Origin: Bolinopsis microptera
Lineage: Eukaryota; Ctenophora; Tentaculata; Lobata; Bolinopsidae
Assembly (NCBI RefSeq): GCF_026151205.1
Contig: NC_087076.1
Location: 18,401,419 to 18,465,418, forward strand
Reading direction: 5' to 3'
Length of the DNA stretch: 64,000 nt
How positions within the stretch are numbered: position 1 is the first letter of the stretch; every line of letters begins with the position of its first letter. This document shows positions 26,035 through 56,100 of the stretch, one piece after another. The notes beneath the pieces were generated by a model. That model did not search any database. It worked only from the letters and a program-made list of their open reading frames with translations, and was not told where the DNA came from. The position numbers and the translations under genes were made by a program.

Positions 26035-26326
26035 GCTAATGGGGAACAAATCCACATGCAGTCTCCTCAAGTAGACTAAGTTTCAAATCATGTCATACAT
26101 ATGATTTAAATTGGATTTCGGATCAGCAATCATACTGCAGTTTAAATCATAAAATTTAACAGCATAAAATAGTAACTCACTTCTGTTTGTGATAAATATA
26201 GCTTGAGAGATATAAAAACGTTAAGTTATTAGAAATTTGTGCTGATCTAACATTTTAAACCAGATAAAACAGTAATCCTGTTATTATTCATGTTGATACC
26301 CTTGGATTATAGAATTTTAATGAAGT

Positions 26327-28243: not shown

Positions 28244-28264
28244 TCCATTAACGTTACATTCGTA

Positions 28265-29480
28265 TTACATTCGTATTACTTTGGTCACCACTTCCTCTAC
28301 ATTCTCAACCTCATCATCAACTTCATAATCTTCATCATGAACATCATCACCCCTGTCTTCATCTCTGGTGATGTGTGCAAGATTTAGGTCCAGTTCGTCA
28401 ACAGGTATTGCTTTCTCATAATACCGTCCTCTCACTGCAATCACAACTGTTTTAAGTAGCTCAAATCGCAAACGACGTCTAAGATTTGCCATGATGAGGC
28501 TTTTGTCCTGGCTGGTCTTGGCTGCCAGAAGTGTTGCCACTCGTTTAAGGAACATGGTAGCCTGTGGGCCAATACCTACGGTGGTCGAGAATACAAGGCC
28601 ATTGCAGGTTCCTTTTTCGATCTGTACACAGCGGTCTCCATATTTCCTTTCTTTCTCTCTCATGCTTATTGTACATCTTTGCTGGGGTGTTGTGATTAGT
28701 GTTGGATTTGGCTCCGGGGTGTAAAACCCTGATATCAAAGAATGCCATCTCCATTGGTGACCACAGACCTCTAGCTGCAATGTCAAGCCTTGCCCCATCA
28801 TCCAGAATGGTACCAGGGCGAAGGCTTTCTCCAGTGCATGGCTGGAGTGTTGGCTCTACAACAACCTCATTGCAGATTTTTTCAAGAATGCTTGCAATGG
28901 TGTCTCTCAGTCGGTTGTGTCTGCTGTTGACAAAGCCTCCTTTCTTGCAAATGAGAATGTGGTTGTAGGTGTTATCTTTGCCACAAATGCATTTCTTGGC
29001 TATGTTGGCAATGGGTAGATCGTATCTCAGTGCTATAGCGTCTTTGAACCCTTGCTTGTTCAAGACAAATCCGTACTTCTCACAAGGTAGTCTGGTCAGC
29101 CAGCTTGATGCACCTTTTTCACATGCATGTGGGATCTTCTCACTGATCAAAGGTGGTAGATCGTTCATCAGCTGGTTTTTGAGAGATTCATGTCTCTTTG
29201 CATTTGACAGGCTAATGGCACTCTTGACCGCTTTCCCAGCCTCTCTGTTGGTATTGAGAGTGGTGTGTTGCTTCAGAATGTGTTCTGTAAGCTGCTGGTT
29301 AGCCATGAGTGAGTTCTTGTACTCAGTATCAGCAATTTCTACTGGATTGATTATAGCTAGTCCACCTAACTTGGCTGGGAGGGAGAACAGACTTTGCTCA
29401 GGGTCAGACCGAATAGTGTGACCTGTCATGTTGGGAATGAGCAAATTCCTGATCTTGTCCTCAATTGGCTGCAAGTTCAC
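28265..29480 (-). pseudogene. LINE-D C-terminus: zinc knuckle and restriction-like endonuclease
   Basis: It starts with a thumb-like segment (LPAKLGGLAIINP). A zinc knuckle follows (CICGKDNTYNHILIC), then DGARLDIAARGLWSPMEMAF and DIRVLHP, with the Asp-x(15)-Asp spacing of a restriction-like endonuclease. After a frameshift near 28680 the frame continues through CNGLVFSTT and RRRLRFELL to the acidic end at 28265. The same blocks are at 7258-8083. Confidence 0.75.
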
Positions 29481-31677: not shown

Positions 31678-33603
31678 CAGCAATAGCAGCAAATCTGGGG
31701 AAACTTTGAAATACACCAATTTGAAGCATTTAACCCCCCCTTAAAAATCAAAGATTATGAATTTTAGTAATCTGATTATTTACATAGGTCCAAAAATGTC
31801 ATAGCTTCATGATAGTGCAACGAAAAAAATCTCAGAACATTTTGGTGCTGAGTTAGGTGGTTAAGTAGTCGAAAAATGACTGATTTGTTAGTGGACATTT
31901 TTTATACCTCTAACACCCAAACCCTTACTACAGTGAAGATATAAGTACTACAGTTAATATTGATGGTCATTATTGAACAAAAATGGTTCATTGACACATA
32001 GTTGAAGAAGGAAATTAAAAAAATTAATAAATGTGGTCTGTGGAGTGGTTTATTTGTTTATGTTATAGTGTACGCGTGCGCGCGCGCTAGCGGGTACTTA
32101 ACCATCTGTAGGCCAACATATTTAGTCTACGCTTAAATTCTTTATATATTATGTCACCACTATGGTGCCCAATACTTTTAGTGAAGGTTTGATGTAGAAC
32201 AGTTAACCACCAACTGTGGTATATCAAAAAAACCATGTTTGTACGCGTGCGCGCGCTAGCGCGTACTTAACCACCTGGTATGGCACAGCATTGAAATATC
32301 ACCATAATTTCAAAAGCAGAGGTCACCATTCAGGTGCCCAAAACTTTTGACTATGGTCCCAATACCATAAAACCTTAGATGTGGCCTCAATGTGGTTAAA
32401 ACATGTTTATTTTGGACTTTCGGTCAACAGAAGCCATCACAAATTAACCATTATTCAGCAACCTCCGAACTTTTTGTGCCTTATTTTGTTTTGATATTTG
32501 ATTATGAGAGATAGCTGGAGGATAATAAGTGATTTTAAAGATAATGCAACAAAATGTGTGGCCGTATGGTGGTTAAAACGACCAAAAACACTGATTTTGG
32601 TCAATTTTAGACCTTTATTAACCATGATGGACGCAACATAGGACTCAGCAATGTTTCTGGTCATATAAATGAGCAGGTAGTTATATCTAGATAATGTAGC
32701 ATGGCCAGCTATAGCTTTACAAAGCTAATATGTGCTCTAAAAATGGTTAATTAGTGCAAATATAGGGTATTTTCGAGACATTTTAACCACCATAGCTGCA
32801 CATTGATCATAATGCATGAACTTGGGGTCAATTATGCATTTGCAAACAATTATACACTCATTTGGATAGCAAACCATTATCTGAAGTTCATATTGTGGTT
32901 AATTTTCACTTTAATAGATGCCTTGTTCAACAGCCTAGCAAGTAATATAGCCCTTTTAACCACTTTTATGACAACATTTCTTGATAAATTTTATCAAGAC
33001 CCTTCAAATGTCCTTTGTTGACCATAAAATGTTGACTAAAATCATTAATAATGTTTTGATTGGTGGTTAACAATAAATTTTGACATTTTAACCATCTTTT
33101 TAGCACTTTTTACGAATATTAACCACCTCAAATCAACCATACTATTAAATTGCACATTTGTGATAAAAAATTATCATCCATGCACAAATGAACAACCAAC
33201 ACTATACATCTATAATCAGAGCAATATTTATAGCTCACCGTTCATCTTCAATTTAACCACCATTAGGACCACAAAATGCCCCCAATGAGGTTTGAAAACT
33301 TTTGTGATAGTTGCACCATGATATGATCTCAATATAATGACTACTCAGTTCATAATATCATATCTCAAAATGGTGGTTAACCCTAAAACTGGTATTTTAA
33401 CCACCATAGTGGCCACATAGATGACCCATTAACCACAATTATTCAACATGACCGTACTGCAGTGTTTTGTGCGCCAGAAAAACATCACTCCAACATTGAG
33501 ATTAACCACAATGAGCTGCAACATAATGTTGAAGTCAACATACTCAAATTGTGTGAAAAAAGTCAATGTCCACCAAGTTTCCCCAGATTTGCTGCTATTG
33601 CTG
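31678..33603. mobile_element. TIR element with dense TTAACCACC motif array
   Basis: A 29-base perfect TIR, CAGCAATAGCAGC..GGAAACTT, lies at 31678-31706 and inverted at 33575-33603. Both sides carry a TATA target duplication (31674-31677 and 33604-33607). It interrupts the LINE-A ORF exactly. The 1.9 kb interior has no transposase frame. It is filled with more than 20 TTAACCA(CC)/GGTGGTTAA motifs in both orientations and two copies of a GTACGCGTGCGCGCGC..TAGCG phrase (32070, 32242). It is non-autonomous; the superfamily is unassigned. Confidence 0.9.
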
Positions 33604-35475
33604 TATAGTATAGTTGTTGATGTAGAAATTCTGGAAGGGAGCAGCGAAGTCGACATAAGGTGGAAGTGGAATGATTTAGATTTCGCTTAAGGGCTTTAAT
33701 GTGTTCTTCCCATGAAAGGTTTTCATCAATTATAACTCCAAGGAATTTAGTGGATGAAACTTTTTTTATCGGAAAGTTGTCTATAGTAAGTCCTACTTCA
33801 TCATCTGATAGAGTCTCTGACTTAGAACCTTTCATGGGAGGCTTGAAGTGTATGTAGCAGCACTTGGACATATTTATATGTAACTTATTTGCTCGCATGT
33901 AAGACTGCAATGATGAAAGAAGCTTATTTCCACGTTCATAGGCCTCACGTTTTGTTTTTCCTACAACAAATATATTGGTATCATCAGCAAATGTAACAAA
34001 TGATCCTAGTTTAGAACTGTTTGAGATGTCGTTCATGTAGAGGAGAAATAGGAGAGGTCCAAGTATTGAACCCTGCGGGACACCAAATTGAATAGATAGG
34101 GTGTCTGATTTTTCTCCCACAACTTCGGTGTATTGTAGTCTATTTGTTAAGTAGCTTTTTATAAGGTTATTTGCTACTCCTCTAATTCCACAGCCCTCTA
34201 ATTTTTATAAGTAGTGTTGAATGGTCGATAGTGTCAAAAGCTTTGCTTAAGTCAATGAATATTCCTAGAACATGATTCTTGAGTTTAAGAGATTTTGTAA
34301 TTAAATCTACAGAGTAATTGACTGCATGAGATGTAGAATGGGATTGCCTAAATCCAAACTGTGTCTCCGATATGGCTCCTTGAGAGCTAACAAATCCGTA
34401 TATTCTTGAGTAAATGAGCTTTTCGAAGATTTTACCGAAGACAGACAGTGTGGATATAGGACGGTAGTTCTCAATTTCTTCAGGGTTACCTTTCTTATAT
34501 ACAGGTGTTATCTTACCAGTTTTCAGGACATCTGGAAATATACCTTCGGCCATAAGGATATTGAAGTAATTTGATAAGACAGGTGCAATTATATGAGATG
34601 ACTTTTTTATTACACTTATTGGAATGTCACTAGCTTTGCCGTTTTCAAACTGATTTATAATTTTCAATATTTCGGTCGGGGAGCAATCTTCTAGCATAAT
34701 AGTTTTTTCATTTCTTTTATTCAGGAAGTCATAAAAAGTTTTCATGGGTAATATAGGCATGCCATGAGATAGGTCATTAAGCGTCTCATTCAGCTTGGGT
34801 GCAATAGAGACAAACCAAGCATTGAATCCATTAGCGATTGTCCTTCTATCAACTATTCTTTGATTATCAATGATAAACGGGGGTTTGGTTTGTCTCTTCT
34901 TCTTGCCTCTAAGTTCATTGATAATTTGCCAAGTTTTCTTGCTGTTTTCACAGTTGTTGAGGATTTCGTTGCAGTAATGCGAACGTTTGGCAGCTTTAAT
35001 GATGGCTTTAAGCATCCTACGATAATTGCTAAATACTTGGTAGAACAAGAGATTACCACCAGGGTTCTTATTGGTAACACTGTCAGACCACTCCTTACGT
35101 AGTTCATGTTTTCTTTCTACCGACTGGATGATACCGTCTGTAATCCATGGGTTGAGTTTCGGAGTTCTTTTTGTCACTTTTGGTACTTCCAGTTTACAGT
35201 GTTTATCAAGTGTCTGGTCAAAACATGCCGTAAACTCATCAAATTGTGTCGAAGGAGTCAGCTGGTTTACCTTCACCTCAAGTTCAGTTACAAAACTTTT
35301 TAATTTGGAGCTTGAGTAATCATAATATCGGACATGTTTCTGGGGCTCTGTATTGCGAGGGGTCTCTACTGAGGTAAAGGTAAATATAGGGGCATGCTCA
35401 CCAAGCCGCTCCTCGATAACACCTGATAAGACTACATTCTCTATTTTATTTGTTAAAATGGTTTTGAATTCAGAC
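33604..35475 (-). pseudogene. LINE-A ORF2: endonuclease end and reverse transcriptase
   Basis: RT motifs: NYRPISTLSVFGKIFEKL, TQFGFRQSHST, IFIDLSKAFDTIDH (catalytic Asp), then after a frameshift at about 34150-34180 FGVPQGSILGPLLFLLYMND and TFADDTNIFV (FADD). The coding continues upstream of the first listed start into an endonuclease tail (about 35475). One frameshift and the TIR insertion inactivate it. Confidence 0.82.
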
Positions 35476-38552: not shown

Positions 38553-40944
38553 ATGAGGCTGCATGACAATCGTGATGTTGATGTCCTTTCTGACTTCCGT
38601 GATGTATGCCGCAATCCATTGTTATTCCCAGACATCAAAAAATTTCCTGTGAAATATGCGAGGCGTATTACTGGGATAATATCCACTCATGTAAAACCTT
38701 TACAAGACAGTTTTTTAAATCATAAAGATCTAACAGAAAGTTTGGAAATCCCAAGTTTTGAGCAATTATGGGAATGTTTGTATTACACCAAGAAACTTCT
38801 TTGTGTTGGACTAGGCAGAGTTACAATCGTCAATGAAACATCTTATGCTGATAAAGGTATTTTTGATATTTGGAACAGTTCAATTGACTGCATCTCTAAT
38901 CTTCCTGAGATTGCAATTGAAATATGTAATCATTCGTTTGTTTGGTGTAATGATCTTCTTATTGAGTCACTCCAGTCCCTGATTCCGTTCAAAATACCGT
39001 ATACTGCATGGCAGTTGATTGTCCTTCATCTTAGTGCTGGTCCTGATTCATTAAATAAGAAATCTGGAATGCTACTCACCAAATTAGGAACCATTTCCAG
39101 AGGCAAAAAATCTCAAATTGTTGAGAGATTTTTCATCAGAGAATGCATCTTGATGTCTGGAGATTTAATCAGAAACCTTTACCAAACTCTCTACCAAAAA
39201 CTGTCACACATTACGGCCAGGAAGATGAAGCAAAAGTTGCCCTTGCTTTTAAACAAGTTCAACAACTCAATGAAGCGTCTCTCACGTTTTCTTGGTTCCT
39301 GCAAACCATCATCAGGGTGTATCAACTATTATATAAGTAATCCATTTTATATCCCATAAGCGACCACTCAAAGTATGAAGAAGCCTTTGGTCTAACACTG
39401 AAGAAAGGGTATAAACCAAACATATTGAAGATAACAGGTGTTAGCACTGGCTATCAAAATAATGCAGGCCACTTAACTATGTTCATAGCTGATATGACAG
39501 AAGAAAAAAACTTGTATCATATTCTATGCATTGATAAAAATTGTACTGACCTCTTTGAAAGTGAAGAAAGTGCTTCAAATTCCAAATTTACATTTCTTTT
39601 GGGAGCCTTACATTCACAAAATCCCCCAATTGTACATTGTTTTGGAAGTTTGGTTGCTGGCATTGGGTTCGAGGACTCTACTAATCGTAATCAGAAGACT
39701 TTGGCTGTTTGGGATATCTCAGATGAAGGCTGTAAGAGAAGAATTTTTTATTCTGATTTTGCAACAATGAAAGAATCCTGGAAAAATATTTACTCTAGGC
39801 TTTATTCAACTTTACTTTTGGACGAAAATATCACAATTTCTGGAATGGCAAAGTTTGATAAAACATTAAAAGTGATGTTTTATACAATGCCCTTTCCTTC
39901 TAAACCAAGACAAAGTCCGATGTGTGTAATAGCTGAGTATGATCTAGATGCATTTTCATCAAGGATTCTTTTCTGAAACCAGAGCTTCGATTTTCTCTCT
40001 TTTCTAATGCCTTGCCATTAGGAATACACAACAACATGGCTTTTGTTATGCACCTTGAAACAAACCTGCTGTGTGTTTATGAAATCAAACAAAAAGGTGA
40101 GATTGTAATCAGCAAAACCAGCTTTGGATGTGGAAAAGGTTGGAAAATACAGTTTAATAGCAATCCTGAAGTACATTCATGCCTTCTGTACAAAAAAAAT
40201 CATTTTCAATTACGAGAACTTGATGGAGAATTGACTCTAGTGAATGAATTTACCCTCGATTTGGACCATTTTTCACAACTTAATAACAGTTTTGAGTTTC
40301 AGTTTTATGATGATCTTTTATATTGTTTTCTTAATAATCAGGAAGATATGCACGAAACTGATGACCACATTCATGCATTGTTTGAATCTTTACCAGACAA
40401 AGAGTGTGACACTTTCTTAAGTAGGAGGTTTGCTGATGCACATATGGTTCACTTATTAGTTGACTTAGATAGTGATGAGAAAGAGCTTGTTTACGTTGAT
40501 TTTGGTGTTGATAATGTAGATTCTAGTGATGTTGTCGAAGGTCATTCTAAAAACTTAGCAGATTTACAATTTTGTCTTACTGGATTCAATGATAATCGAG
40601 AACTTGTTCAGTTGAGTATGTCACTGGAGGTGTGTAAGGGAATTGATTTTAATGATTTTAGAACTGAAATGGTTTGGTCCACTATAAAATTCTACAAAAG
40701 CTTTCAAGACACGATTAATTTGATGTTACCTGATGTTGAGAAAGTCATTGAGGGTGCTGAAGAAGGGCGTAAAAATAAAGAGAGGGAAGAGCAGGAAAAT
40801 ACGAAAAGGCAAATCATACAAGCTGAGAAGCTAAAACAAAAAACAGAGACAAAGAAAGCAAAAAAGAAACAGAGGCTAGAGTGGAAGCAGCAACGGATTA
40901 TCAACCAACAGGCCCTGGAAGTAGATCAGTCTGAGTACTATTGA
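38553..40944 (+). pseudogene. Paralogue 1 of an unrecognised family: two frameshifts, no cold-shock domain
   Basis: Three frames join into one protein homologous to paralogue 3: 38553-39359 (helical domain, from MRLHDNRDVDV through LLFPDIKKFPV and FVWCNDLLIESLQSLIPFKI), about 39360-39976 (ITGVSTGYQNN, LAVWDIS, ISGMAKFDKTLK) and about 39975-40944 (LFSNALPLGIHNNMAFVMH, FADAHMVHLLVDLD, then a Lys/Glu coiled coil). One-base losses near 39353-39360 and 39970-39977 break the frame at places where the paralogues read through. It ends after the coiled coil (QSEYY), before where paralogue 3 has its cold-shock domain, and lacks the acidic N-terminus. The frameshifts are at plain junctions without splice signals, so introns are unlikely. 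It is probably a pseudogene; a sequencing error is possible. Confidence 0.8.
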
Positions 40945-41583
40945 CAGTCTGAGCACTATTGACAACCAAGAGTCATCAGGAGACAGTTAGAGAACTCCAT
41001 GACCTGAAATGCCAATAGCCACTAGAATTTATTTTCTCTGGTTCTAGAAATAGTGACCGTACTAGATTCCTTCTTAAATTGAAGACTGATTTTAGAGCCA
41101 TCTCATGGCTTTTGTGTAATCATTTCGGGCTTAAGAGATTAGAGTTTGGGCAAGGGATTATCATGATACATTATATAATAATCGATGAGGGTAGAAATTT
41201 GGAAACGCTATTTTTGGACTAACCCCTGGCCCTTCTGAGGCGTTTCTTCAAACAGCTTCAATCCTTGTGAAGATGTTTCACCCAAAAGTAAATAAGTCAT
41301 AAAATAATCTTGTAAAGAAATTAGTAGTAGAACTGGTGTGATTTCAAAAAGCTGTGATGGAACAGCAATCACATACAATTTAATATGATCTGATACTAAG
41401 ATAATCTTTTTTCTATATTATATTTAGATCTGTAGCAAAATAATTACCATAATTGTGATGTATAAAACTTGATTTATTTATTGTTTCGTTTATTGATCTA
41501 ATCCTTATAAATCTGACCTTGTGTTTTGAGATATCGTGCGCCAAATATTGAGGTTTACCTGTAATTTACATGTAAAACTATAA
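40945..41583. other. Intergenic stretch between paralogues 1 and 2
   Basis: No gene seen. The first ~60 bases still resemble the coding region following the coiled coil in paralogue 3 (a GTCATCA.GAGA phrase), so the lost C-terminus of paralogue 1 has eroded here. Confidence 0.45.
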
Positions 41584-42210
41584 GGACACGTTCATTGAAG
41601 TTTGAGGATATTGGTAAATATTAGTGACCTTACTGAATGGCATGAAGATGTAAAATGTGTCACACTATGACATTATATAAACCCTCTATGCCTAGGATAA
41701 TCGTTTCCTCCTCAGGATAAACTTTGTCGCATAACGATGTCTTTATCAGACAATAAAATATCGCTTAAATGCGGCCAGCAGTGAGTTGTAAACTTTGTCA
41801 CACTATAAAAACGTGACAGAGTTTATATGGACCCCTTGTTGCCGTGTTTGACCAAATTTTCGAATTTCCAATTCATAGGATAACTTTGCATATATGACTA
41901 TTATCTACATATTTAGCGACTTTTTTCGTTAAATGGTAGCACCATGTAAACTCCGTCACACATTTAAGAAATTTATATGAGGGATGTTTATGTCATTCTG
42001 TCACAAAAATGTGACATTTTTACATTATAGTACCTTAAAGCAATAAATTTTATTTCTGAGCAGTGCATATAATAGGAGTATGGGTCTCGTGGCTAATATT
42101 TAGGACTTATGAATACACTAGATTGATTGATGCTAAAATTAAGCCACTATCGTCGAAAACGCTATTTTAGAAACTTACCAATATATCCTCAAACTTCAAT
42201 GAACGTGTCC
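41584..42210. mobile_element. MITE with 28-bp TIRs and GTCACA motif array
   Basis: GGACACGTTCATTGAAG..GAGGATAT at 41584 is inverted at 42183-42210, and ATAA is duplicated on both flanks (41580-41583, 42211-42214). The 627-base interior holds repeated TGTCACA/GTGACA motifs and no coding frame. Confidence 0.88.
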
Positions 42211-42580
42211 ATAACTTAAACTGAAAAAAAAGGTAATCCTCCTTAACGGGAAAGGACTGGCCACAACCAGGAGCTGAAACTTGGCACATGTGTTCTTTGG
42301 GGTGTCATGCAAAAACATTATGTTTTAGAATTTAGATATATAATGTCCTTGAAATAGGTATGAGGTTAACAAAATTATGGCAAAATGTGATTTTTTTTCT
42401 TCTTGTTTTGTCTCCAGCAGCTCTGTAATGTAATTCCTCAGGATATGATTAATGAAAGTTATGACATCCTACTCATCAATACTGTTAGAAACCAAAAAGT
42501 TATTTTTTGAGTCTACGCAGCGGGCGACAGTTATAAGATCAGCCCATATGCGACCATTACAAGATATCTGTCCATACTAA
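42211..42580. other. Non-coding stretch before paralogue 2
   Basis: No similarity to the 5' part of the paralogue family. The match to paralogue 3 begins abruptly at about 42582, which marks the truncation point. Confidence 0.5.
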
Positions 42581-44596
42581 TCAGTAACTGAAAGGTTGAA
42601 TATCCCTATTTATGAACAATTGTGGGAATGCCTGAATCATGTCAAGGAAATAGTGTGTGCTGTTGACAAAGAACTTACGATTCCCAGCAAAACACCTAAT
42701 ATTATTGCTAAAATGTGGAACAGTTCAATTAAAAGTATCTCACCCCTCCCTGGGAGTGCAGATGAAATGGGTTCCTATTGGTTTGTTTGGTGCAACGATC
42801 TTCTTATTGAATTACTCCAGTTGTTGATTCCATATGAGATACCTTATACTGCTTGGACGTGCATCATCTTTCATCTCACTGATACTGATACATGCCGTAC
42901 CTACTCTGATGAACTGCTCAGAACCAACTTAGGAACCATTTCTAGTGACAAAAAATCACAAATTATTGAAAGAATGTTTATTAGAGAATGCATCTTAAAG
43001 TCTGTCGATTTAACTAATTGTTTGTATCGAATTTTACACCAAGAACTGTCACATAGAACAGTCAGATTGATGAAATGGAGATTGCCTTTGCTTTTAGACA
43101 GGTTCAACCGCTCTATGAAGTATTTGGTATGCTTTCTGTGTTCGTCTGAACCATCTCCAAGATGTATCAACTATTATATACAAAAGCCATTCATATTTTT
43201 TATAAGTGACTGCTTTGATATAGTACCTGGGCTAAAAGAGCACTATGAAGCAAACATATTTAAGATGGTAGGTGCTAGCACTGGCTATCAAAACAGATCC
43301 AAGTTTTTCACTATGTTCATACCTGACTGTAAGGAATCAGGTGAAACATACTTGTACCATCTTCTGTGTATTGATAAAAACTGTACAGACAATGAAGAAA
43401 ATACTTCAAGTTTAAAAGTTTTTTCAGAAGCCTTAAGTGCAAAAAAACCACCTATTATATTAAGTTGTGAGGGTCTGGTTGCTGGAATCGGTTTTGAGGA
43501 CTGTCCTAATGAGACTCAAAAACATTTGGCTGTTTGGGATGTTTCTAATGGAGACTGTGGAAGGATACTATTTTCTTCAAGTTTTGCAAATATTACAAAT
43601 TCATGGAAAGAAATTGATCTTGGAATCAATTCAACGTTCTTCTCGATTGAGCATGTTAACATATCTGGTATGGCAAAATTCGATAAAACAATAAAGCTGA
43701 TGTTTTCTTTAGCGCCCATCTGTCCTGAAGTCTGTGAACAATTGCCCTCTTGTATTATTGCTGAGTATTACTTGGATGAATGTCCAGAAGAGTTTTCATC
43801 TTCAAAGTCAAACCTACAAAAATCTTACTTCAAGAATGCTATACCAATGGGATTACATAAAAATATGGCGTTTGTAATGCATCTAACAACAGATATGCTG
43901 TGTGCATATGATATTGAACGAGAAGATGAGGTTGTAATCAGCAAATTATGGCTTGAAAGTGGGAAAGATTGGAAAATATTGTTTAATAGCAATCCTGAAA
44001 TGAATTCATGCATTGTGTACAAAAACAATAATTTTCAAAGCAGACAACTTGATGGAGAATTGACTCTAGTGAATGAATTTACCCTTGATTTGGACCATTT
44101 TTCGCAAACCAATGGCAATAACAGTTTTGAGTTTCAGTTTTATGACAAGATATTGTATGGGTTTTTAAATAACCAAGAAAATCTGCAAGAAACTGAAAAT
44201 GAAATGCATGAATCATCTTTACCTGACAAACATGAAAAGTGTGCTGCTTTTTTAAATAGGAGGTTTGCTGATGCACATATGGTTCACTTATTAGTTGACT
44301 TAGATGATGATGAGAAAGAAATTGTTTACCTTGATTTTGATCCCAAAGATGACGATTACATTGATAAAGAGGTACAATTTTGTCTCACTGGATTCAACAG
44401 CAATGGAGAACTTGCCCAATTACGCATGTCTCATGAAATCTATGATGGAATTGATATCAATGATTTTAAAGAAGGATATATGACATTTACGACTGTTAAA
44501 TTTATTGAGTGCTTCGAAGACACGATTAATTTCATGTTGCCCAATGCTGAGAAAGTTGAAGAGCAAAGGAAGCAACAGATCATGTTTACTTCTTAA
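42581..44596 (+). CDS. Paralogue 2 of the unrecognised family: intact middle, truncated at both ends
   Basis: One uninterrupted frame follows a TAA at 42578-42580. Homology to paralogue 3 starts at SVTE (residue ~114 there) and runs through the helical domain (FVWCNDLLIE, IPYTAW, KKSQIIERMFIRECIL), the WD-like middle (LVAGIGFED, LAVWDVS, ISGMAKFDKTIK, MGLHKNMAFVMHL) and FADAHMVHLLVDLD. It stops at EEQRKQQIMFTS, before the coiled coil and cold-shock domain. There is no ATG near the 5' end; the first in-frame one is at 42713. With ~670 codons free of stops despite missing ends, it may be young, still translated from the later ATG, or joined to an unseen upstream exon. It is probably a pseudogene or partial duplicate. 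Confidence 0.72.
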   Translation, partial: SVTERLNIPIYEQLWECLNHVKEIVCAVDKELTIPSKTPNIIAKMWNSSIKSISPLPGSADEMGSYWFVWCNDLLIELLQLLIPYEIPYTAWTCIIFHLTDTDTCRTYSDELLRTNLGTISSDKKSQIIERMFIRECILKSVDLTNCLYRILHQELSHRTVRLMKWRLPLLLDRFNRSMKYLVCFLCSSEPSPRCINYYIQKPFIFFISDCFDIVPGLKEHYEANIFKMVGASTGYQNRSKFFTMFIPDCKESGETYLYHLLCIDKNCTDNEENTSSLKVFSEALSAKKPPIILSCEGLVAGIGFEDCPNETQKHLAVWDVSNGDCGRILFSSSFANITNSWKEIDLGINSTFFSIEHVNISGMAKFDKTIKLMFSLAPICPEVCEQLPSCIIAEYYLDECPEEFSSSKSNLQKSYFKNAIPMGLHKNMAFVMHLTTDMLCAYDIEREDEVVISKLWLESGKDWKILFNSNPEMNSCIVYKNNNFQSRQLDGELTLVNEFTLDLDHFSQTNGNNSFEFQFYDKILYGFLNNQENLQETENEMHESSLPDKHEKCAAFLNRRFADAHMVHLLVDLDDDEKEIVYLDFDPKDDDYIDKEVQFCLTGFNSNGELAQLRMSHEIYDGIDINDFKEGYMTFTTVKFIECFEDTINFMLPNAEKVEEQRKQQIMFTS

Positions 44597-45233
44597 TGTA
44601 CAGCTATGATTTACAGAATTGACTTGTGAACTCTACCCCAGATCTAGCCCATTTCTGTGTCAATTATATTCAATCCATGGATCACATCACTAATTGTACG
44701 TCACTAATTGGTGACGTGATCTGACCCCTCTTGGGGGCCGGATCAGTTTTCTGACCCAAAGTCTCCCAGCCCAGGTCAATATCATTAAAAATATGTCGTA
44801 TATTATTATATCTGGGTGAAATATGTCATGGTTTTTATCACCCGATGGGGCATTTTTGGGCCCCACAATGATCCAAAATGGCAGAGCCTGATACAGGGGG
44901 ACAAAGCCTGCTATAGGCGAGTCCTAGAAAAATTTATTGAAAAATTCTTAACTATTTTGATATAATTCTTCAAACACAAGGATATTTTTATATGGTATCT
45001 CCTGTCAGATATGTCAAATAATCGTTCATCTGATCAAATATGCGCAAACGATTTTCATGTCAAGTTCTGCCTGTAAAAGACAGGTAAAAATATGCGTGAA
45101 CTTTCTCAGATATTTGTAAATCATGACAAAATGTCAAGATTTCGAATGTCATGATTTTGGATGTCATGAAAATATCAAAATTTTCGCAAACATTTTTCAA
45201 GAAATTTTTTCGAAAAAAGTTTTTTTAAAGGTA
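44597..45233. other. Intergenic stretch with a palindrome
   Basis: No gene. At about 44685-44722 TAATTG occurs twice within a palindrome (ACGTCAC-TAATTG-GTGACGT at its core). Confidence 0.45.
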
Positions 45234-46484
45234 CGGGTAAATGCCTCACAGAATGGCTAGCCTCACAGAATGGCCAAATTTGTAAATGTTTTTGTAACTA
45301 ATTTTTCATATAAGACTGGTTGGTTTTGTGGATACCATATGAAACAAAAGTCTTCTGGCAACACTTCCTGTGGTGAAATCATTAACTAGGACCACATTTT
45401 CTGGCATAAATATGACTGTTTATGTAGAAATTTTGAGCACTGAAAATTTGTTTTCAAATTTTTGAACTAAGTTTACATTTTGGTGAGAACTTCTGGCACC
45501 AGTATGACAGAAGATGTTTAAAGAATAGTATTCATCAAACAAAACGAACATTGTTCAAAATAGGAAGAAAAAAATGCTAAAATGGCTACACGCCTCACAA
45601 AATATGCCTCACAAAATTTGTTTTCAAATTTTTGAACTAAGTTTGCATTTTGGTGAGAACTTCTGGCACCAGTATGACAGAAGATATTTAAAGAATAGTA
45701 TTCATCAAACAAAACGAACATTGTTCAATATAGGAAGAAAAAAATGCTAAAATGGCTAAACGCCTCACAAAATGGCCAAAATATGCCTCACAAAATGGCC
45801 AAAATTTAAAACTCCTTTTATTCAATGAAACAATAAGTCTAAAGTATTCACAAGCTATTTATCATACAATAACACCCCAGATGGAGTGTTTTTACAGCCG
45901 AATGAAGGTTATAAATCATGAAATCAGGGAATATGAACAACGCCACACAAAATGGCCATTTTTGGTGTAGGAAATTATGCCCTTTTTATTCAGTTCTAAG
46001 AAATTTCACCTATATGGGGGTGTTAACAAGGCATATTTATACCAGCAGCATGCCTGAAACAAGAGCCAAAGGTTTTAGAAAAATAAAATTTTCTCGTTTT
46101 CTTTTTTTTTGGCCATTTTGTGAGGCATTTTTTCTTTTTTGTGAAATAATTTTTCACAGCTCAGTTTTTTCGTGAGTTTTAGGTTATTACCCCATTCCTT
46201 AATAGGTTTTCTAACAACGTGTGGTGATAGAAATTTAAAAAGTATCTCCATCAAAAAATTATAGAAATTCAGATTTGGCCATTCTGTGAGGCATGTTTTT
46301 TTGGAGGAAGATTTTCCAGCCAATTTTTCTCAAAGAAAAAATGGTTATGAGATTAAATCAACCCCCGGGAAGAAAAATATGAGTGTCAACTTAGCTTCTT
46401 ATGAGATAAAAACTGGAATAAAGTGTGTTTTGTGATTTTGAGAGACCTTCCTTTTATTTGGCCATTCTGTGAGGCATATACCCG
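45234..46484. mobile_element. TIR element with GCCTCACARAATGGCC motif array and 170-bp internal duplication
   Basis: CGGGTA(A/T)ATGCCTCACAGAATGGC at 45234 is inverted at the right end (46461-46484), with TA on both flanks as expected for a TA-inserting (mariner-like) transposon. GCCTCACA(A/G)AATGGCC recurs about eight more times inside in both orientations. Two tandem ~170-base units with few differences begin near 45447 and 45617. No transposase frame is present. Confidence 0.82.
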
Positions 46485-46573
46485 TATTCTGTAATCAATT
46501 ATTTCTGAAATTAAATTAGTTTGTAACAAAATTTAACAATAAGTTGATTATGTCGTGGTTTTCCTTCCCAGTG

Positions 46574-46640
46574 GGAATTGATATCAATGATTTTAAAGAA
46601 GGATCTATGACATTTTCGACTGTTAAATTTATTGAGTGCT
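46574..46640 (+). pseudogene. 67-bp fragment of paralogue 2
   Basis: This matches 44447-44513 at about 65 of 67 bases (the GIDINDFKEG..TFxTVKFIEC part). Nothing else from the gene flanks it. It shows a recent local copy or a remnant of a deleted duplicate. Confidence 0.85.
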
Positions 46641-46679
46641 CCTTTAAATATCAAATTGATTTATTGTAAACTTGTTTAC
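46640..46679. repeat. 40-bp direct repeat, left copy
   Basis: The 40 bases beginning TCCTTTAAATATCAAATTG recur exactly at 48426-48465. The pair brackets ~1.75 kb that includes the TIR element at 46858-48325. Confidence 0.9.
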
Positions 46680-46857
46680 AAACAAGTTAAACTTAAAAAC
46701 GACTCTAAATCAGTAGGCTGTCACTCTATTAATGCACCACACCGCTACCTCCACTGCACTAAAAGTTATACTATAAATTCTACAATCCTTATTTTTTATC
46801 GTGATGGAGACCGGTTTCCATACAAAACTTTTACTAGGTTGCCGTTTGGTGGGAGCA

Positions 46858-48325
46858 GAGGCACATATTAGGTGCGGTAAAAAATCGAAATTATGCGTTA
46901 CCGCACCCGACTATAAAGGTAAAATGTGCGGTAAGGTGCGGTAAATTTTTACCAATTATGCGGCAAATGTGCAGCGATTTTTTCGAAATTTGTGCGGGAA
47001 TTGTGCGGGTTTTTTTGCATTTTCTCAAGGACTTTGGGAATTCTAAACGTATAACCGCCGCTCTTATCAAAAATAGGTCTGTTTATGTGTTACTGAGGGT
47101 GTAGTTCTTTACTAAGACCATGATTGAACCTATATTGAGATTCAGTTATCTGAGAACCGTGACTTGATCTGGTAGAGATCAGGAATCAGGATACAGTTAT
47201 TTGAAGACGCCTCTTGATAGAGTCGATCAGATCCCATGCGTGATCGCAAATATGTGACATGCTTGTTGGCATTGATCGTCAGTATTTGTGAACCATTTGA
47301 TCCAAGATCCATTAAGCCCACTATAAAGCCAACGCTGCAACGAATAAAGCTCATTACCCTTTACACCTACTTCTTCTATTATCACCTACGAATGATAACT
47401 GATACACTATAATCGAAGTACGGTAACGACGAGGGTTCCATAATGGCCTGGGTCACGGTCCCGAAAGGGCCTGGATCACGGTCCCGAAAGGGCCTGGGTC
47501 ACGGTCCCGAAAGGGCCTTAGTCACGTGGCCTAAGCATGAGTTCCAAAAGGGCCTGGGTCACGGTCCCGAAAGGGCCTGAGTCACGTGGCCTAAGCATGA
47601 GTTCCAAAAGGGCCTGGGTCACGGTCCCGAAAGGGCCTGGTTCAGGGTCCCGAAAGGGCCTGGGTCAGGGTCCCGAAAGGGCCTGGGTCACGGTCCCGAA
47701 AGGGCCTGAGTCACGTGGCCTAAGCATGAGTTCCAAAAGGGCCTGGGTCACGGTCCCGAAAGGGCCTGGGTCAGGGTCCCGAAAGGGCCTGGGTCAGGGT
47801 CCCGAAAGGGCCTGGGTAACGGTCCCGAAAGGGCCTGGGTCACGGTCCCGAAAGGGCCTGGGTCACGTGGTAACCGGGTCATGTGACCTAAGCATGAGTT
47901 CCAAAAGGGCCTGGGTCACGGTCCCGAAATGGCCTGGGTCAGGGTCCCGAAAGGGCCTGGGTCAGGGTCCCGAAAGGGCCTGAGTCACGTGGTAACTGGG
48001 TCACGTGCTCACGTGGCCTAGGTATGAGTTCCAAAAGGGCCTGGGTCAGGGTCCCGAAAGGGCCTGGGTCAGGGTCCCGAAAGGGCCTGAGTCACGGTCC
48101 TAAAAGGGCCCGGCTTTTAACATATTTTGGTTTTTACACTCGAAAATCTTAACGCGAAAATTTCAAAATTATGCGAAATTACGCGGAAAATGCTAGATTA
48201 TGCAGAAATATGCAGATAATTACAAAATGTGCGGAAATGTGCGGAAAACAATAAATTATGCGGAAGTGTGCGCAAAACGGTAAATTGTGCGATCCCGCAC
48301 CCATCGCACCTAATATGTGCCCATG
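46858..48325. mobile_element. TIR element with TGCGG motif array and internal minisatellite
   Basis: GCACATATTAGGTGCG near the left end (46861) is exactly inverted at the right (48305-48320). GGTGGGAGCA occurs on both flanks (46848-46857, 48326-48335), a 9-10 base target duplication that suggests a Mutator-like insertion. Subterminal regions are filled with (A/T)TGTGCGG and ATTATGCGG motifs. The middle holds the 23-bp minisatellite. There is no transposase. Confidence 0.82.
47450..48112. repeat. 23-bp GC-rich minisatellite inside a TIR element
   Basis: Units of GGGCCTGGGTCACGGTCCCGAAA with variants (CAGGGTC, TAACGGTC). A recurrent spacer, TCACGTGGCCTAAGCATGAG followed by TTCCAAAA, gives a higher-order pattern. 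The open frame through it (47537-47983) is a repeat artefact. Confidence 0.92.
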
Positions 48326-48425
48326 GGTGGGAGCAATAGCGAACAGCACGCACACTCCTTTGCCTTGTCAACCTATATCTAATCTATTTAAAGAGTGACA
48401 ACCATACTACACTTTGAATTAGGAT

Positions 48426-48465
48426 TCCTTTAAATATCAAATTGATTTATTGTAAACTTGTTTAC
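48426..48465. repeat. 40-bp direct repeat, right copy
   Basis: Exact match to 46640-46679 (see there). Immediately after it, at about 48490-48545, ATTTTTGTTTAACTGAA is repeated three times in tandem. Confidence 0.9.
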
Positions 48466-48744
48466 TCTGTAATAAATGGCATAAAATTGAAATTTTTGTT
48501 TAACTGAAATTTTTGTTTAACTGAAATTTTTGTTTAACTGATTCAAAACCTGCATTAGGTGAGCAATTCTATTCGGAGTACCCTCTCGTATCCAACAGTA
48601 ATAATCTCATAATCAGTTCTTTCTCGTGGATAATTAAGTCATTATTAGGCACCACATTCCATGATCATAAGGTCCGAACACCGACTATTACACCTCATCA
48701 CTCCCGTCTTGAACCGCTTTCCATTTTTATTTAAATCGTTTTAG

Positions 48745-49060
48745 AAATTAACCCTTGTTAACTCCGCACCACACCCGCCTATTATATTTGAAAACACGCA
48801 TAACATTGTCTTATGAAAGTATGAACTCTCTCTGCAGTTCAAACAGACCCGGCCAAACAGTGCCCCCTCCCCTAATAAGATTATAGTATAACATGACAGT
48901 GAATCTTACCCCGCTAACCCAATTAAGGTTATTACTTATGCAGCTACATGTGCAGAGAGAGCCAGCCCCGTAACTCTTACCATTTTCTTGATTAAGCTGC
49001 TCGGAAAACACACACACACATTCTGAGATTATTGTTTAAGATTGTTATTGTATTCCTTTG
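48745..49060. repeat. Duplicated 5' flank of the paralogue family, copy at gene 3
   Basis: Matches 37211-37440 and 38218-38345 upstream of paralogue 1, including TTAACTCCGCACCACACCC, TATGAAAGTATGAACTCTCTC, GTAACTCTTACC and a CA-rich tract followed by GAGATTATT. This shows that the genes arose by DNA-level duplication that included the promoter side. Confidence 0.75.
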
Positions 49061-49474
49061 TCAATTTGATCCTAATTCCAGTTCTCATTCTATTCAAGTA
49101 AATTTATTTCATAATCATAGTGTTTTGGGCCCATCAGAGTTGCACTGGCACTCCAATATTAGAGTTTATCATATGTATTGATTATATAATCGGTAATAAA
49201 TTTAACATTTGTTTTATTAACTTTAAAAATAACTGTGTTTCGATATCTCCCAATCCTTATCATTTGGTAGCAGATCGAGTTAAATTTGAGTGACTTGAAA
49301 TAAATGATATACAAAAATTGTCTATATTGAATATTGATTGTTCTGGCAATATCAGCCATATATTTTTTACAGAAATAAAGATTACCATTCAGAGATATTT
49401 ATCGATTTTAATACAACAGTGCAGTGTCCATCTCACAACACTTATTTATCTAGATTCTAGTAACTCAGGGTCTA

Positions 49475-52315
49475 ATGTTCTATGACAGTGACGACGATGA
49501 TGACGATCACTACATGTTTGGTGGATTCAATGGCTATGGGGAATATGGATTTGAGGGTTTTGGTATAGAATTTGGTGATTGGTTGGATTTTGGCGGATAT
49601 GAATCTGATGATTACTACAATGACTACTTTCTTGATAGTGATGACTCAGATTACACTTGTCACAGTGATCAATCATATGACGACTTTTACGATTTATGTC
49701 ATAGTCCATCTTTATTTCCTGATACAAAGAAATTTCCCGTGGAGTGTGCACGGCGGCTATCAAAGATACGATCAGCTCTTTTACATCCATTTCCTGAAAT
49801 CCCTCAATATCAGTCAGTAACTGAAAAGTTGGAAATCCCAATTTTTGAACTACTTTGGGAATCTTTGTTTTACGTTAAGCATGCAATGTCTGTTGGACTT
49901 GGTAGGGTTGCAATTTCTGGTGAAGCTTCAGATGATGTTAATAAAGGCATCACGAAGATGTGGAACAGTTCAGTTGACTGCATCTCAGCCCTTCCCGGCA
50001 CGGCAGATGAAATGTGTAATCATTGGTTTGTGTGGTGCAACGATCTTCTTATCGAGTCACTCCAGTCATTGATTCCATTTAAGATACCTTATACTGCTTG
50101 GGAGTCCATCATCCTTCATCTCAGTTCAGACTCAACTTGGGCCAATAGAACCCTACTTTCCAAGATAGGAACCATTTCCAAAGACAAAAAATCTCAAATC
50201 ATTGAGAGAATTTTGATCAGGGAATGTATCTTGAGGTCTGTAGATTTAACCAGGGTTATTTACCGAGTTCTCTACAGTCGACAGTCAGACTTAAATGCAG
50301 GCAAGATAAAGCAAAAGTTGCCATTGCTTTTAAACAAATTTACAAACTCTATGGAGCATTATGCTTGCTTTCTCGATTCCACAGAACCATCTTCAAAGTG
50401 TATCACTCATTCTGTCCGGAACCAATTCTCTTTATTTATAACTGACCACTCTGACCAAGTACTTGATCTCAAACAGGATGAATTCAACATACTTAAGATG
50501 GTGGGTGCCAGTGCTGGCTGTCAAAACGGAAGTGATCACTTCACTATGTTTATAGCTGATTGTGAGGATTCTGGAGAAGAAGACTTGTATCATCTCTTGT
50601 GCATTGATAAAGACTGTCTTGATAATGAGCAAAATACTAGATTTATGTTTGTTCCAGGGGCCTTCTATTCACCACAAAAACCACCAGAAATTTTCAGCTG
50701 CAAAGGTTTGGTATCTGGAATTGGATTTGAGGATGAGAGGAGGACTTTGACTGTTTGGGATATAATGTCAGATGAGGTACCTTTAGAAAGGCAAGGAATT
50801 TTTTCTTCAGATTTTGAAAAAATTACTAACTTGTGGAAGAAAAGTGAGCCTAAGCTCAGCTTACGTATGGTCGATGACGTCAAAATTTGTGGTATGAAAA
50901 AATTAGACAAAACAATAAAGCTGATGTTTTGTGTTGCACCCCTTCAACTTTTAGAAGATGAGGAACTATTCTCTACGTGTATCATTGCTGAGCATGATTT
51001 AGATGCATTTTCATCGAGGTTTTCCTTCCTGAAACCTAAGCTTCAATTTTCTCTCTTCTCGAATGCTATACCATTGGGAATATATAAGAATATGGCTTTT
51101 GTGATGCACTGTACAACGAATATGCTCTATGTGTATGATGTTGAACAAAAAGATGATGTTGTTATCAGCAAAACTAGCTTTGAATGTGGAAAAAACTGGA
51201 AAATACAGTTTAATTACAATCCTGATATAACAACATGCCTTCTATACGAGAGAAATAACCTTCAAATCAGAGAACTTGATAAGGATCTGACCCTCCTGAA
51301 GGAACTAACTCTTCACCTGGACCATCTTCCTCAACTCAATTTAAACAGTTTTGAATTTCAATTTTGTGACAGCATTTTATATGGTTTTCTTAATGTTCAA
51401 GAAAATCTGAATGAAACTCAAAGTAAATTTGTATCAAAAGAAGCTGCATGTGATTTTGATTGTGATACATTCTTGAACAAGAGGTTTGCTGATGCGCATA
51501 CAGTCCACTTTCTAATGGACTTAAGCAGCTATGATAAAGAAATTGTATACCTAGAATTCGATGATAATGCTCATGAATGCACAAGCATTGTTGACAGCTT
51601 CAGAGACTATGGATCTGTATATGTTCAGTTTTGTTTGACAGGATTCAATAAAAGTCGAGAACTTGTTCAGTTGTCTATGGGTCTTGATGTTGACGAAGTG
51701 GAATGTTTAGACTTGAAAATAAGTGCACTGTGCCCGTCAATTGATTTTTCCACTGTTCATTTTTACAAAAGCTTTAAAGACATGACTGATTCGATGTTGC
51801 CTGAAGTTAAGAAAGTTATCTCACGACACGAGGATGAAGTTGCAGACCGTGAAGCCAACATGAAGAAAGAAAAGGAATTTCTGGAAAAGTTACTCAAAGA
51901 AAATGAGGAGCGAGAACGGAAGAAAGAAGCAAAGAAAACAAAAGAGGACCAAAGGAGACAAAGAAAATGGCAACAGAGGATCAAAGCCGAGAAAGACAGA
52001 AAGGCTGCTCGAGTGAACCAGCCCAAAACTTCAGCACAGGGGTCATCAAGAGAGAGTGACAAAGCTGGAAAGTTGAAGGAGCATATCGCTAGTGGAACCG
52101 TTTTCACTTCTACCATCAGTGCTTGGTTGCCTTACAAACACTATGGTTTCTCAACTGTAGAAGTGGACCAAGGGAAGCAAAGTGTATTTGTTCATGAGAG
52201 TTGTATTGTGAACAGCGACAGGAATAATGTGAGGATTGGGAGCTCGATTCAGTTTCAGCTTAGATGGACCCAACCCCACCCCAGACCAAAGGCTATCAAT
52301 GTGAAGCTGCTGTAA
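49475..52315 (+). CDS. Paralogue 3: complete unrecognised protein with a C-terminal cold-shock domain
   Basis: Single intact 946-codon frame from ATG at 49475, preceded by an in-frame-free AT-rich leader. Residues 1-74 are Asp/Gly/aromatic-rich (DSDDDDDD). Residues 75-330 are mostly helical, with LFPDTKKFPVECARR, WFVWCNDLLIESLQSLIPFK (184-203) and KDKKSQIIERILIREC. Residues 335-775 are strand-rich, with WD-like phrases (LTVWDI at 425-430, LYVYDVE at 551-557), so a beta-propeller is plausible. Residues 785-848 form a Lys/Glu coiled coil. Residues 871-946 are a cold-shock domain: GTV (874-876), RNP1-like KHYGF (888-892), RNP2-like VFVHES (904-909) and GSSIQFQL...PKAINVKLL. Cold-shock domains bind single-stranded RNA or DNA, so a nucleic-acid-bound scaffold is likely; the role is unknown. 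Only this copy of the family has the cold-shock domain, and no full-length homologue comes to mind. Confidence 0.9.
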   Translation: MFYDSDDDDDDHYMFGGFNGYGEYGFEGFGIEFGDWLDFGGYESDDYYNDYFLDSDDSDYTCHSDQSYDDFYDLCHSPSLFPDTKKFPVECARRLSKIRSALLHPFPEIPQYQSVTEKLEIPIFELLWESLFYVKHAMSVGLGRVAISGEASDDVNKGITKMWNSSVDCISALPGTADEMCNHWFVWCNDLLIESLQSLIPFKIPYTAWESIILHLSSDSTWANRTLLSKIGTISKDKKSQIIERILIRECILRSVDLTRVIYRVLYSRQSDLNAGKIKQKLPLLLNKFTNSMEHYACFLDSTEPSSKCITHSVRNQFSLFITDHSDQVLDLKQDEFNILKMVGASAGCQNGSDHFTMFIADCEDSGEEDLYHLLCIDKDCLDNEQNTRFMFVPGAFYSPQKPPEIFSCKGLVSGIGFEDERRTLTVWDIMSDEVPLERQGIFSSDFEKITNLWKKSEPKLSLRMVDDVKICGMKKLDKTIKLMFCVAPLQLLEDEELFSTCIIAEHDLDAFSSRFSFLKPKLQFSLFSNAIPLGIYKNMAFVMHCTTNMLYVYDVEQKDDVVISKTSFECGKNWKIQFNYNPDITTCLLYERNNLQIRELDKDLTLLKELTLHLDHLPQLNLNSFEFQFCDSILYGFLNVQENLNETQSKFVSKEAACDFDCDTFLNKRFADAHTVHFLMDLSSYDKEIVYLEFDDNAHECTSIVDSFRDYGSVYVQFCLTGFNKSRELVQLSMGLDVDEVECLDLKISALCPSIDFSTVHFYKSFKDMTDSMLPEVKKVISRHEDEVADREANMKKEKEFLEKLLKENEERERKKEAKKTKEDQRRQRKWQQRIKAEKDRKAARVNQPKTSAQGSSRESDKAGKLKEHIASGTVFTSTISAWLPYKHYGFSTVEVDQGKQSVFVHESCIVNSDRNNVRIGSSIQFQLRWTQPHPRPKAINVKLL

Positions 52316-53107: not shown

Positions 53108-56100
53108 ATGGAGTCGCGACTCGAACTCGATTCAAATGAACATCAGGTTTGTTATCTTATCTTAATATATATTATTACATCTTAAAATGTATTCTTCCAG
53201 GTCATTCTTGAAAAAGATTCTCAAGAAAATGTCTAAAATTTTATTACTTAAACTGAAAGTTGCTTTAGCTGTTTAAGATAACTTGTCACATATAATGGTT
53301 TAAAATTTAAGGAAAAATTGTAAGCATTCTTTGCTTAACTTCTGCAAAACATTAAATTTTTATTAAAGGTAATTTAATTCATCAAAAGGAATTCATTGTC
53401 ACATACCCGTTTATCAATCCAAACCAGTATCTGACAGCTATATCGTACAATATTTACAATTATTGCCATAAAAAAGTGAAAACACCCGCACCACACCTTA
53501 ACAACAGTTTAAATCTATTTTTAGAATACTAACCTACAAAATTTAAAGTGCGCCTACAGTGTACACATAGTTAAGTCACTCGTCTGGTCATGTTAACTAA
53601 TCTTTGAGTTGGTGTGTTATTAACGATGAAACCTGTCTTTGAGTACGAACAACTCAAAATTACGTGACATATATTATTATCTTGCAGTGTTTAATGAGCT
53701 GGAAGTCACATGTTTGGAAAAGAAAATAAATAGTCTCGAATATCATGCTGCTGCTTTAAAACTGCCTCATACTTTGTTCTAGAATCTATTTCACCCCAGA
53801 ATCAATTTCCTATGAACAGAATTCCGAGCGTCGTGAACTTGTAACATTTTAAAATTTATCCACGTGGAACAAGATGTATTTATAGCCGTTCCGTGCTGCA
53901 AAAATAACATTGACTTTCATTAACAGTCCGAAGCCAGAAAGTCGTATTAATAACATGTAATGATATGCTAGGAATCCAGATATAATATGTTTAAAATGCG
54001 AACTATGAAGGCTACTATAGTTCGTGTGGTTTCCCGTGGAAAGAATGGTGTGTCCCGTGTTTGCGCGGTTTACTGTCCAATTATGTAATTAAATATTACG
54101 GTCTCAATTAACATAACTTCTTAATCAAGACCAATTAAAGTGTACGTTAGTTTAATTAACGACGTGAAATATTTTAGTTGCATTAAAGAAAGCGGGCTGA
54201 GTGAACTACGTAATATTTATTTACATAAATTTAGGAAATTTCGTTTGAGAACACTTTTAAGATTTGTGCTGTCGCTAAGTTTTAAAAGTCTTGCTAGTCT
54301 ATCCGTTTTATTCATAGAACATGATGTGATGAATCGAGGACTTATAATTAGCCCTTTTTTCTCGAGAATTTTATTTGAACGGTAAGATTTGTTCATGATT
54401 CCATATCTTCCGACGTGTCAAAAGCTAAAACGAAAACAAAACTGACTAAACTGTTTGTTTAAACTCAGAATCATTCATTTTATATCAATTGTTTTAGAGA
54501 TTAGCGGTGAATGATAGAATATTATATGTATGACATGAAATAACATCAACATTCAACATTTTCTCCAAAAGTTATTTTAATTCTTAGATAATTGCCCCCA
54601 CGCCTGGCGGGATAATAAAACGAATCTCGTTCTATTCTACAGAAATTAGTAATAACTCGTACACGGACGTACTCACGCATAGCGATAACTATCTTTAATT
54701 TCAGAAAGTGATAGAGTTTTTGAACTGGGTGAACGTGATGCAGGAACAAGTTGGGCACCCTCCTGTTGACATGAAATGCGCTGTCAAGTTCTTATCTGCC
54801 CGGAAGTTTGATGTCACCCGCGCCATTACTTTATTCAGGAACCATGAGGTAAGGGCACGTTGACGTTTCCCCTTTGGCATCCAAAGAATTGAGGGAATTC
54901 CTTCCGGTGTGTAAGAATTGAAAACACCCCACCTAACAAATTGTGATTCGGACGGAGTAGTGCAGCAGGTGTGTTTTGGATATGATTTCTTATTAGGTGT
55001 GGTTACCGGGGAATGCTAATGACTGATAACTTTAATTTATGAAACATGTCGGCCGGGGGAGGTATTGCGTTTCAAAACAGTGCGCTTCGTTAACCAGCAC
55101 TGTGTTTCACAGTGTGCACCGTCAGCGCTAAATATTACTTATGTGTTCAACTATTGTTGGGAGATTGAGTTATCAACTCGATTTTGCGTTTTCACGTCCT
55201 ACTACTTGATAATTCGATCACCCATGGCTTCATACGTGGCTGTAGTCCCGCCTACTAGGGTGTGTCTCTTTAAGAATTTTTATCCTATTGCTAGTTTTCT
55301 GATATTTTGAGCGGACAAAATAAAGTAAATTTCGCGCGTTATCACAAAAACTTAAATTTGATCCCGCGCAATCTCCCATAAAATATACCATTTTTTCTCA
55401 TGCAAGTAATTTAATCTCCATTAGGCACCGTATTTATTTTATGATTCCATGGGATTGGACCGAACATAATCACTGTCACCATTGTTTAACGATTAGCGAA
55501 CCCCACACTTACCTAAACCTTTTTCTCACAAGGCGATCACACTCAAAGGATTGATCGTTGGATGGAATGACGCGAGGGGTGTCATGTAAGAAATTACAGT
55601 CAAAGGGCGCTGTGTGTACATATTTGTGCGAGGTCGAGGGGATAAGAAATCTCGTATGTAGTGTCAGTATGGCTTCCACTTTTTCATGTGCCAAAGGCTG
55701 TAGTGAGCCGGCTTGTCGGGCTTATCGCTGTCGCGGATATCTTATAGTATAACTCTACCCTTTTAACAGTGTATAAATTTAATGCGAATGAAATGTCCAA
55801 CAGGCGCTGAGGGACCAGTACAAACTGAGAACAATAAACCCTGTCACTGGGCCGCTAAAAGACGAACTCGACAGTGGGAAGTTCACGATTATTGTAAGTA
55901 TGTTACCGGGTAATTATATCTGTGCCATGTACTTCTTTTATGGTCATTAGGTTTTGAGAACTTGTATGGGATCTAACCATGACTGCCAGTAATGTGGGAT
56001 ATTGTTTTACTGTTAAGATTTGCCATGTTTAACATTAGCCTTGTATGTGGGCCTGAGAAGGTGTAAAATGTGTACCTTGAGGGAGTAATTACATTTACAT

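Follow-up and report, generated by a model that had tools for sequence, protein, structure and literature searches.

Single-exon comb jelly genes that join two unnamed regions to a C-terminal cold-shock domain

Cold-shock domains (CSDs) are known in animals mainly from a few families, such as the Y-box, LIN28 and CSDE1 proteins. An array of large open frames in the genome of the comb jelly Bolinopsis microptera, of which the complete one ends in such a domain, raises the question of what kind of protein is encoded there and whether it belongs to a described family. Comb jellies form a lineage that is perhaps sister to all other animals, and they serve questions on early animal evolution. The array lies in a stretch of 64,000 nt of contig C5 (the window), and the genome searched for its relatives comprises 264.65 Mb in 232 contigs.

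Three paralogues are arranged head-to-tail in the same orientation on the plus strand of the window, at 38553-40944 (copy 1), 42476-44596 (copy 2) and 49475-52315 (copy 3), as the initial annotation had proposed. Copy 3 is the only intact one of the three. It is a single-exon gene encoding 946 amino acids, and its open frame runs for 953 codons from stop to stop, whereas shuffling the 15-kb region 100 times gave at most 183. Copy 2 is a truncated paralogue with an in-frame TAA; its homology to copy 3 is limited to residues 79-789, so that the acidic N-terminus and the CSD are absent from it. Copy 1 is a decayed paralogue that corresponds to residues from about 70 to 851, is spread across three frames, and contains two internal stops in its middle piece. 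Decay in the array had been noticed before, but was ascribed to one copy, and two of the three are broken.

The composition of copy 1 appears mosaic. Between residues 483 and 566, 43 sites are shared exclusively by copies 1 and 3 and 17 exclusively by copies 1 and 2, and between residues 566 and 733 the corresponding numbers are 44 and 84, a pattern which suggests that recombination or gene conversion may have taken place among the tandem copies. Copy 1 may also once have carried a CSD. A permissive DNA alignment of its tail (40963-41295, plus strand) with the CSD-coding DNA has a score of 268, which was equalled by three of 1000 shuffles and by none of 311 other windows (best 265), and the candidate decayed domain contains an 18-residue match (E 0.094). 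The trace is suggestive only, because the stricter scoring, which was tried first, gave none (score reached by 70 of 500 shuffles). In copy 2 no CSD trace was found under either scoring (score reached by 234 of 500 shuffles under the strict and 649 of 1000 under the permissive one).

When the genome was searched with the window protein, 15 scored candidates reduced to 10 matches, which represent six gene copies: the three in the window and one each on contigs C2, C10 and C1. A search with the C1 protein returned the identical six copies and none further. These two whole-protein searches also serve as the check for other carriers of the middle region, and all family copy counts are lower bounds. 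With the helical region alone as the query, six places were found, every one a known family copy, so that within this genome the region is known only from these six; with the CSD alone, three places were found, which are the three intact genes and no other. The intact single-exon members are located on three contigs (C5, 946 aa; C2, 887 aa; C1, 918 aa) and have predicted masses of about 103-109 kDa, while three copies are broken, two in the window and one on C10. The tandem expansion claimed from the window is real as a three-copy array, but was overstated, since one intact gene stands in the array and three in the genome.

Identity to the window protein is 40% for the C2 protein and 24% for the C1 protein. 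The order of regions (helical, beta-rich, charged linker, CSD) is common to all three intact genes, each in one frame. The arrangement is therefore a conserved one, with the CSD in frame with the regions before it.

The earlier description of the family as intronless beside spliced host genes agrees with the single open frame of copy 3 and with the spliced gene that adjoins the array, an exon of which (54705-54848) has AG/GT borders and matches CRAL_TRIO_N (E 5.2e-5). Judged from the reading frames, an intronless structure may nevertheless be unremarkable in B. microptera: several of the 18 innexin matches in the genome are likewise contained in one open frame each, and four of the 18 span profile positions 1-331 of 333. 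Innexin pairs with identical scores occur on C1 (4.25 and 4.38 Mb) and C7 (6.75 and 6.94 Mb), and may stem from recent duplication or from haplotypes that the assembly did not collapse.

The CSD (residues 873-946; 52091-52312, plus strand) was identified by Pfam, by a PDB profile search and by conservation. It is the best conserved segment of the protein, with 51.4% identity between the window and C2 proteins and 33.8% between the window and C1 proteins. The isolated domain of the window protein matches PF00313 with E 3.3e-5 and 24.1 bits, the curated cut-off being 27. The whole proteins score 18.1 (window), 20.8 (C2; E 3.6e-4) and 22.6 bits (C1; E 9.5e-5), all below this cut-off. In a six-frame search of the genome with PF00313, the C1 domain rises above it (27.3 bits), while the C5 and C2 domains are not among the matches at E 0.001. 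A family profile built from four sequences has its best PDB match in CspA (2l15, E 1.8e-5), and all 34 distinct PDB sequences matched at E up to 5 fall at profile positions 800-869. The RNP1/RNP2-like motifs W, [Y/F]-G-F and V-F-[V/I]-H are present in all three intact members, and their aromatic residues are those which we take to be the nucleic-acid-binding residues of the domain. Since most of the aromatic residues of the binding surface are kept in the sequence, a nucleic-acid-binding, probably RNA-binding, adaptor is the best reading.

The family departs from the known CSD proteins in several respects. It shares with the CspA/CspE type of PF00313 the three motifs and a Csp-like pattern of about 65 residues, but it has one extra residue past the first motif, and here the domain terminates a polypeptide of about 900 residues. 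A CSD is also present in animal Y-box proteins, and structures of one of them, YB-1, match the family profile (E 0.034 to 0.077). However, Y-box proteins carry the domain near the N-terminus and have basic/acidic tails, whereas in the family it is placed at the extreme C-terminus (873-946 of 946), behind two large unrelated regions. LIN28 is another animal protein with a CSD, to which CCHC zinc knuckles are joined on the C-terminal side; in contrast to it, the three family proteins have no zinc-knuckle match in Pfam and nothing C-terminal of the CSD.

Four segments precede the CSD in the window protein, all encoded on the plus strand. The N-terminus (residues 1-69; 49475-49681) is acidic, rich in Tyr, Phe and Gly, predicted to be unstructured, and has a net charge of -22. 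Its acidic, Tyr-rich character is common to the C5 and C2 proteins, and the C1 protein begins with 70 residues of another kind. It is followed by an all-helical region (residues 70-330; 49682-50464), for which the AlphaFold model predicts 12 helices with low confidence, and by a beta-rich middle (residues 331-790; 50465-51844) with about 20 predicted strands. Identities of the window protein to the C2 and C1 proteins are 44.4% and 23.9% in the helical region, and 36.6% and 21.6% in the middle. A charged long helix or coiled coil (residues 778-846; 51806-52012), indicated by the model and by composition, is the only segment modelled at a pLDDT above 60 (66-76 at residues 791-840). The acidic N-terminus, coiled coil and CSD which had been ascribed to the complete copy are thus all found in it.

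The AlphaFold model with five window sequences in the alignment is poor (mean pLDDT 35.7, pTM 0.25), and so is that of the middle region alone with four alignment rows, again from the window (mean pLDDT 35.3, pTM 0.27), yet the two agree on the secondary structure, with helices at 67-315, about 20 strands at 356-763 and the long helix at 778-846. In Pfam, NCBIfam, PHROGs and PADLOC, the three intact proteins match nothing better than E 0.04 before the linker. The matches in the latter three libraries are to the CSD and, weakly, to the linker, apart from a few with E values of 0.04 or higher. The linker matches go down to E 0.007, one in PHROGs and one in PADLOC, and we read them as a reflection of its charged coiled-coil composition. 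The PDB search with the family profile likewise gave no credible match ahead of the linker. A described family accounting for the first 780 residues was looked for and did not appear in the libraries searched, and the view that no named family combines these regions agrees with its absence from the four profile libraries.

The intact genes are divergent, as the label 'fast-evolving' implied, but the estimated rates do not bear that label out. In a codon model of the three genes (777 codons), omega is 0.120 overall, 0.153 in the helical region, 0.151 in the middle and 0.074 in the CSD; these values are rough, since only three sequences are available and synonymous sites are saturated (pairwise dS 2.4 or infinite; branch lengths 2-6). 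Pairwise counts between the C5 and C2 genes give an omega of 0.23 with dS 2.4.

The broken copies behave differently. Copy 2 has a duplicate on C10 to which it is 98.0% identical over 2,535 nt of DNA. In the first frame (393 codons) 6 synonymous and 10 non-synonymous changes separate the two (ratio 0.46), and in the second (321 codons) 5.5 and 21.5 (ratio 0.94), values which indicate little constraint, as for dead copies. Two insertions, each about 1.8 kb long and located downstream of copy 2, distinguish the window from C10. The one at 44770-46565 carries an imperfect inverted repeat (50-nt arms, 76%) as well as repeated 'GCCTCACA(G/A)AATGGCC' motifs, and is possibly a non-autonomous DNA transposon. 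The other, at 46679-48425, has an exact 40-nt direct repeat on both flanks, and within it, at 47411-48113, 23-nt units (GGCCTGGGTCACGGTCCCGAAAG type) form a GC-rich array.

The explanation that we favor, at about an even chance of being correct, is that these are host genes of the comb jelly, forming a small single-exon family of nucleic-acid-binding adaptor proteins. The conserved aromatic residues of the C-terminal CSD, an OB-fold, would engage single-stranded RNA, or else DNA, and the charged helix would serve as a spacer or in dimerisation. Protein partners would be bound by the helical and beta-rich regions, and the acidic, tyrosine-rich tail of two of the three intact members could promote the assembly of RNP particles. 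The genes are presumably expressed. Of the roles suggested in the initial annotation, RNA binding stands as the best inference from the sequence, and two further genes keep the architecture. A conserved CSD with two unnamed regions in three divergent genes makes the family a candidate lineage-specific RNA regulator of a comb jelly.

A less probable, but still serious, alternative is that these genes are a divergent branch of some animal family already described, for instance of WD40-propeller proteins or of an mRNP factor, with relatives too distant to be detected in the four profile libraries and the PDB. With WD40 and other beta-propeller proteins the family has in common the beta-rich middle, WD-like motifs such as VWD, and non-significant Foldseek rows; most of the 50 rows listed per model are propeller proteins, judged by titles, although DNA sliding clamps account for about 15 of the 50 listed for the middle model. 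Unlike such proteins, however, none of the three intact members matches WD40 or another propeller family in Pfam at E up to 5, and self profile comparison detects no internal repeats (best non-self alignment at 0.1% probability). The structure prediction and Foldseek comparison proposed at the outset supplied the predicted strands and helices but no significant fold match; neither model had a hit that reached E 0.001, and the listed TM-scores were 0.24 or less. Because both models are poor, the propeller-like rows are a hint at most. A propeller fold of the middle is possible from these models, but the WD/propeller-like character once assigned to it is not established. We hold only tentatively the further idea that the family is specific to comb jellies, in which case an all-helical region and a beta-rich fold, both new, would have been fused to a CSD as a dedicated mRNP adaptor with no counterpart in other animals. 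A literature search found no description of such a CSD fusion (PMC7159879 deals with prokaryotic conflict systems), and the family may elsewhere be annotated as hypothetical proteins or may already be named; if relatives across animals carry another name, the finding becomes ordinary.

Three other explanations are improbable. The protein could be a nuclear, ssDNA-binding or transcription-associated protein instead of an RNA-binding one. CSDs bind ssDNA as well as ssRNA, and the CSD profile gives bacterial CspA a better E value (1.8e-5) than Y-box proteins (0.034); animal CSD proteins, on the other hand, act mostly on RNA, and the present data fit both targets. It is just as doubtful that a mobile element or virus was the source of the genes. 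Single-exon copies are spread over four contigs, the array is preceded at distances of 3.3 kb and more by reverse-transcriptase ORFs, and the C10 copy has recently moved, but at least six copies is all that the genome yielded, and the family proteins match no integrase, polymerase or capsid family. Moreover, no relative was found in IMG/VR or in prokaryote genome contigs with two short patterns each, a search of limited sensitivity in which 45 and 50 pattern stretches, respectively, gave none that was confirmed. The other role suggested initially, in accessory defence or immunity, is very unlikely. Divergent paralogues, copy decay and possible tandem recombination are seen in immune families too. 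Against this, the only PADLOC match is that of the window protein (E 0.0072), it falls in the charged linker and is not credible, and the C2 and C1 proteins have none; there are three intact genes only, estimated omega is low, and the genomic setting gives no hint of defence.

Other features were recorded in the window and the genome. A retrotransposon-like ORF group on the minus strand (23037-29480) has a reverse transcriptase (PF00078, E 2.4e-40) and a weak endonuclease match (PF14529, E 0.0011), and one of its ORFs combines a 2OG-Fe(II) oxygenase (PF13532, E 5.2e-23) with a GDSL-esterase match under the cut-off (PF13472, E 5.5e-6). An oxygenase beside a reverse transcriptase of the non-LTR type is unusual, and no literature on such a neighborhood was found. 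A second reverse transcriptase, broken and in two frames, is located at 33563-35276 on the minus strand. Wnt matches in the genome number 17 and fall, by position, at five places; Wnt genes are few in comb jellies, and sponges are not known to possess innexins. The last segment of the window (62001-64000) is far from the rest in composition, with a GC fraction of 0.57, a GC skew of -0.72 and an AT skew of -0.58, and is probably a simple or tandem repeat.
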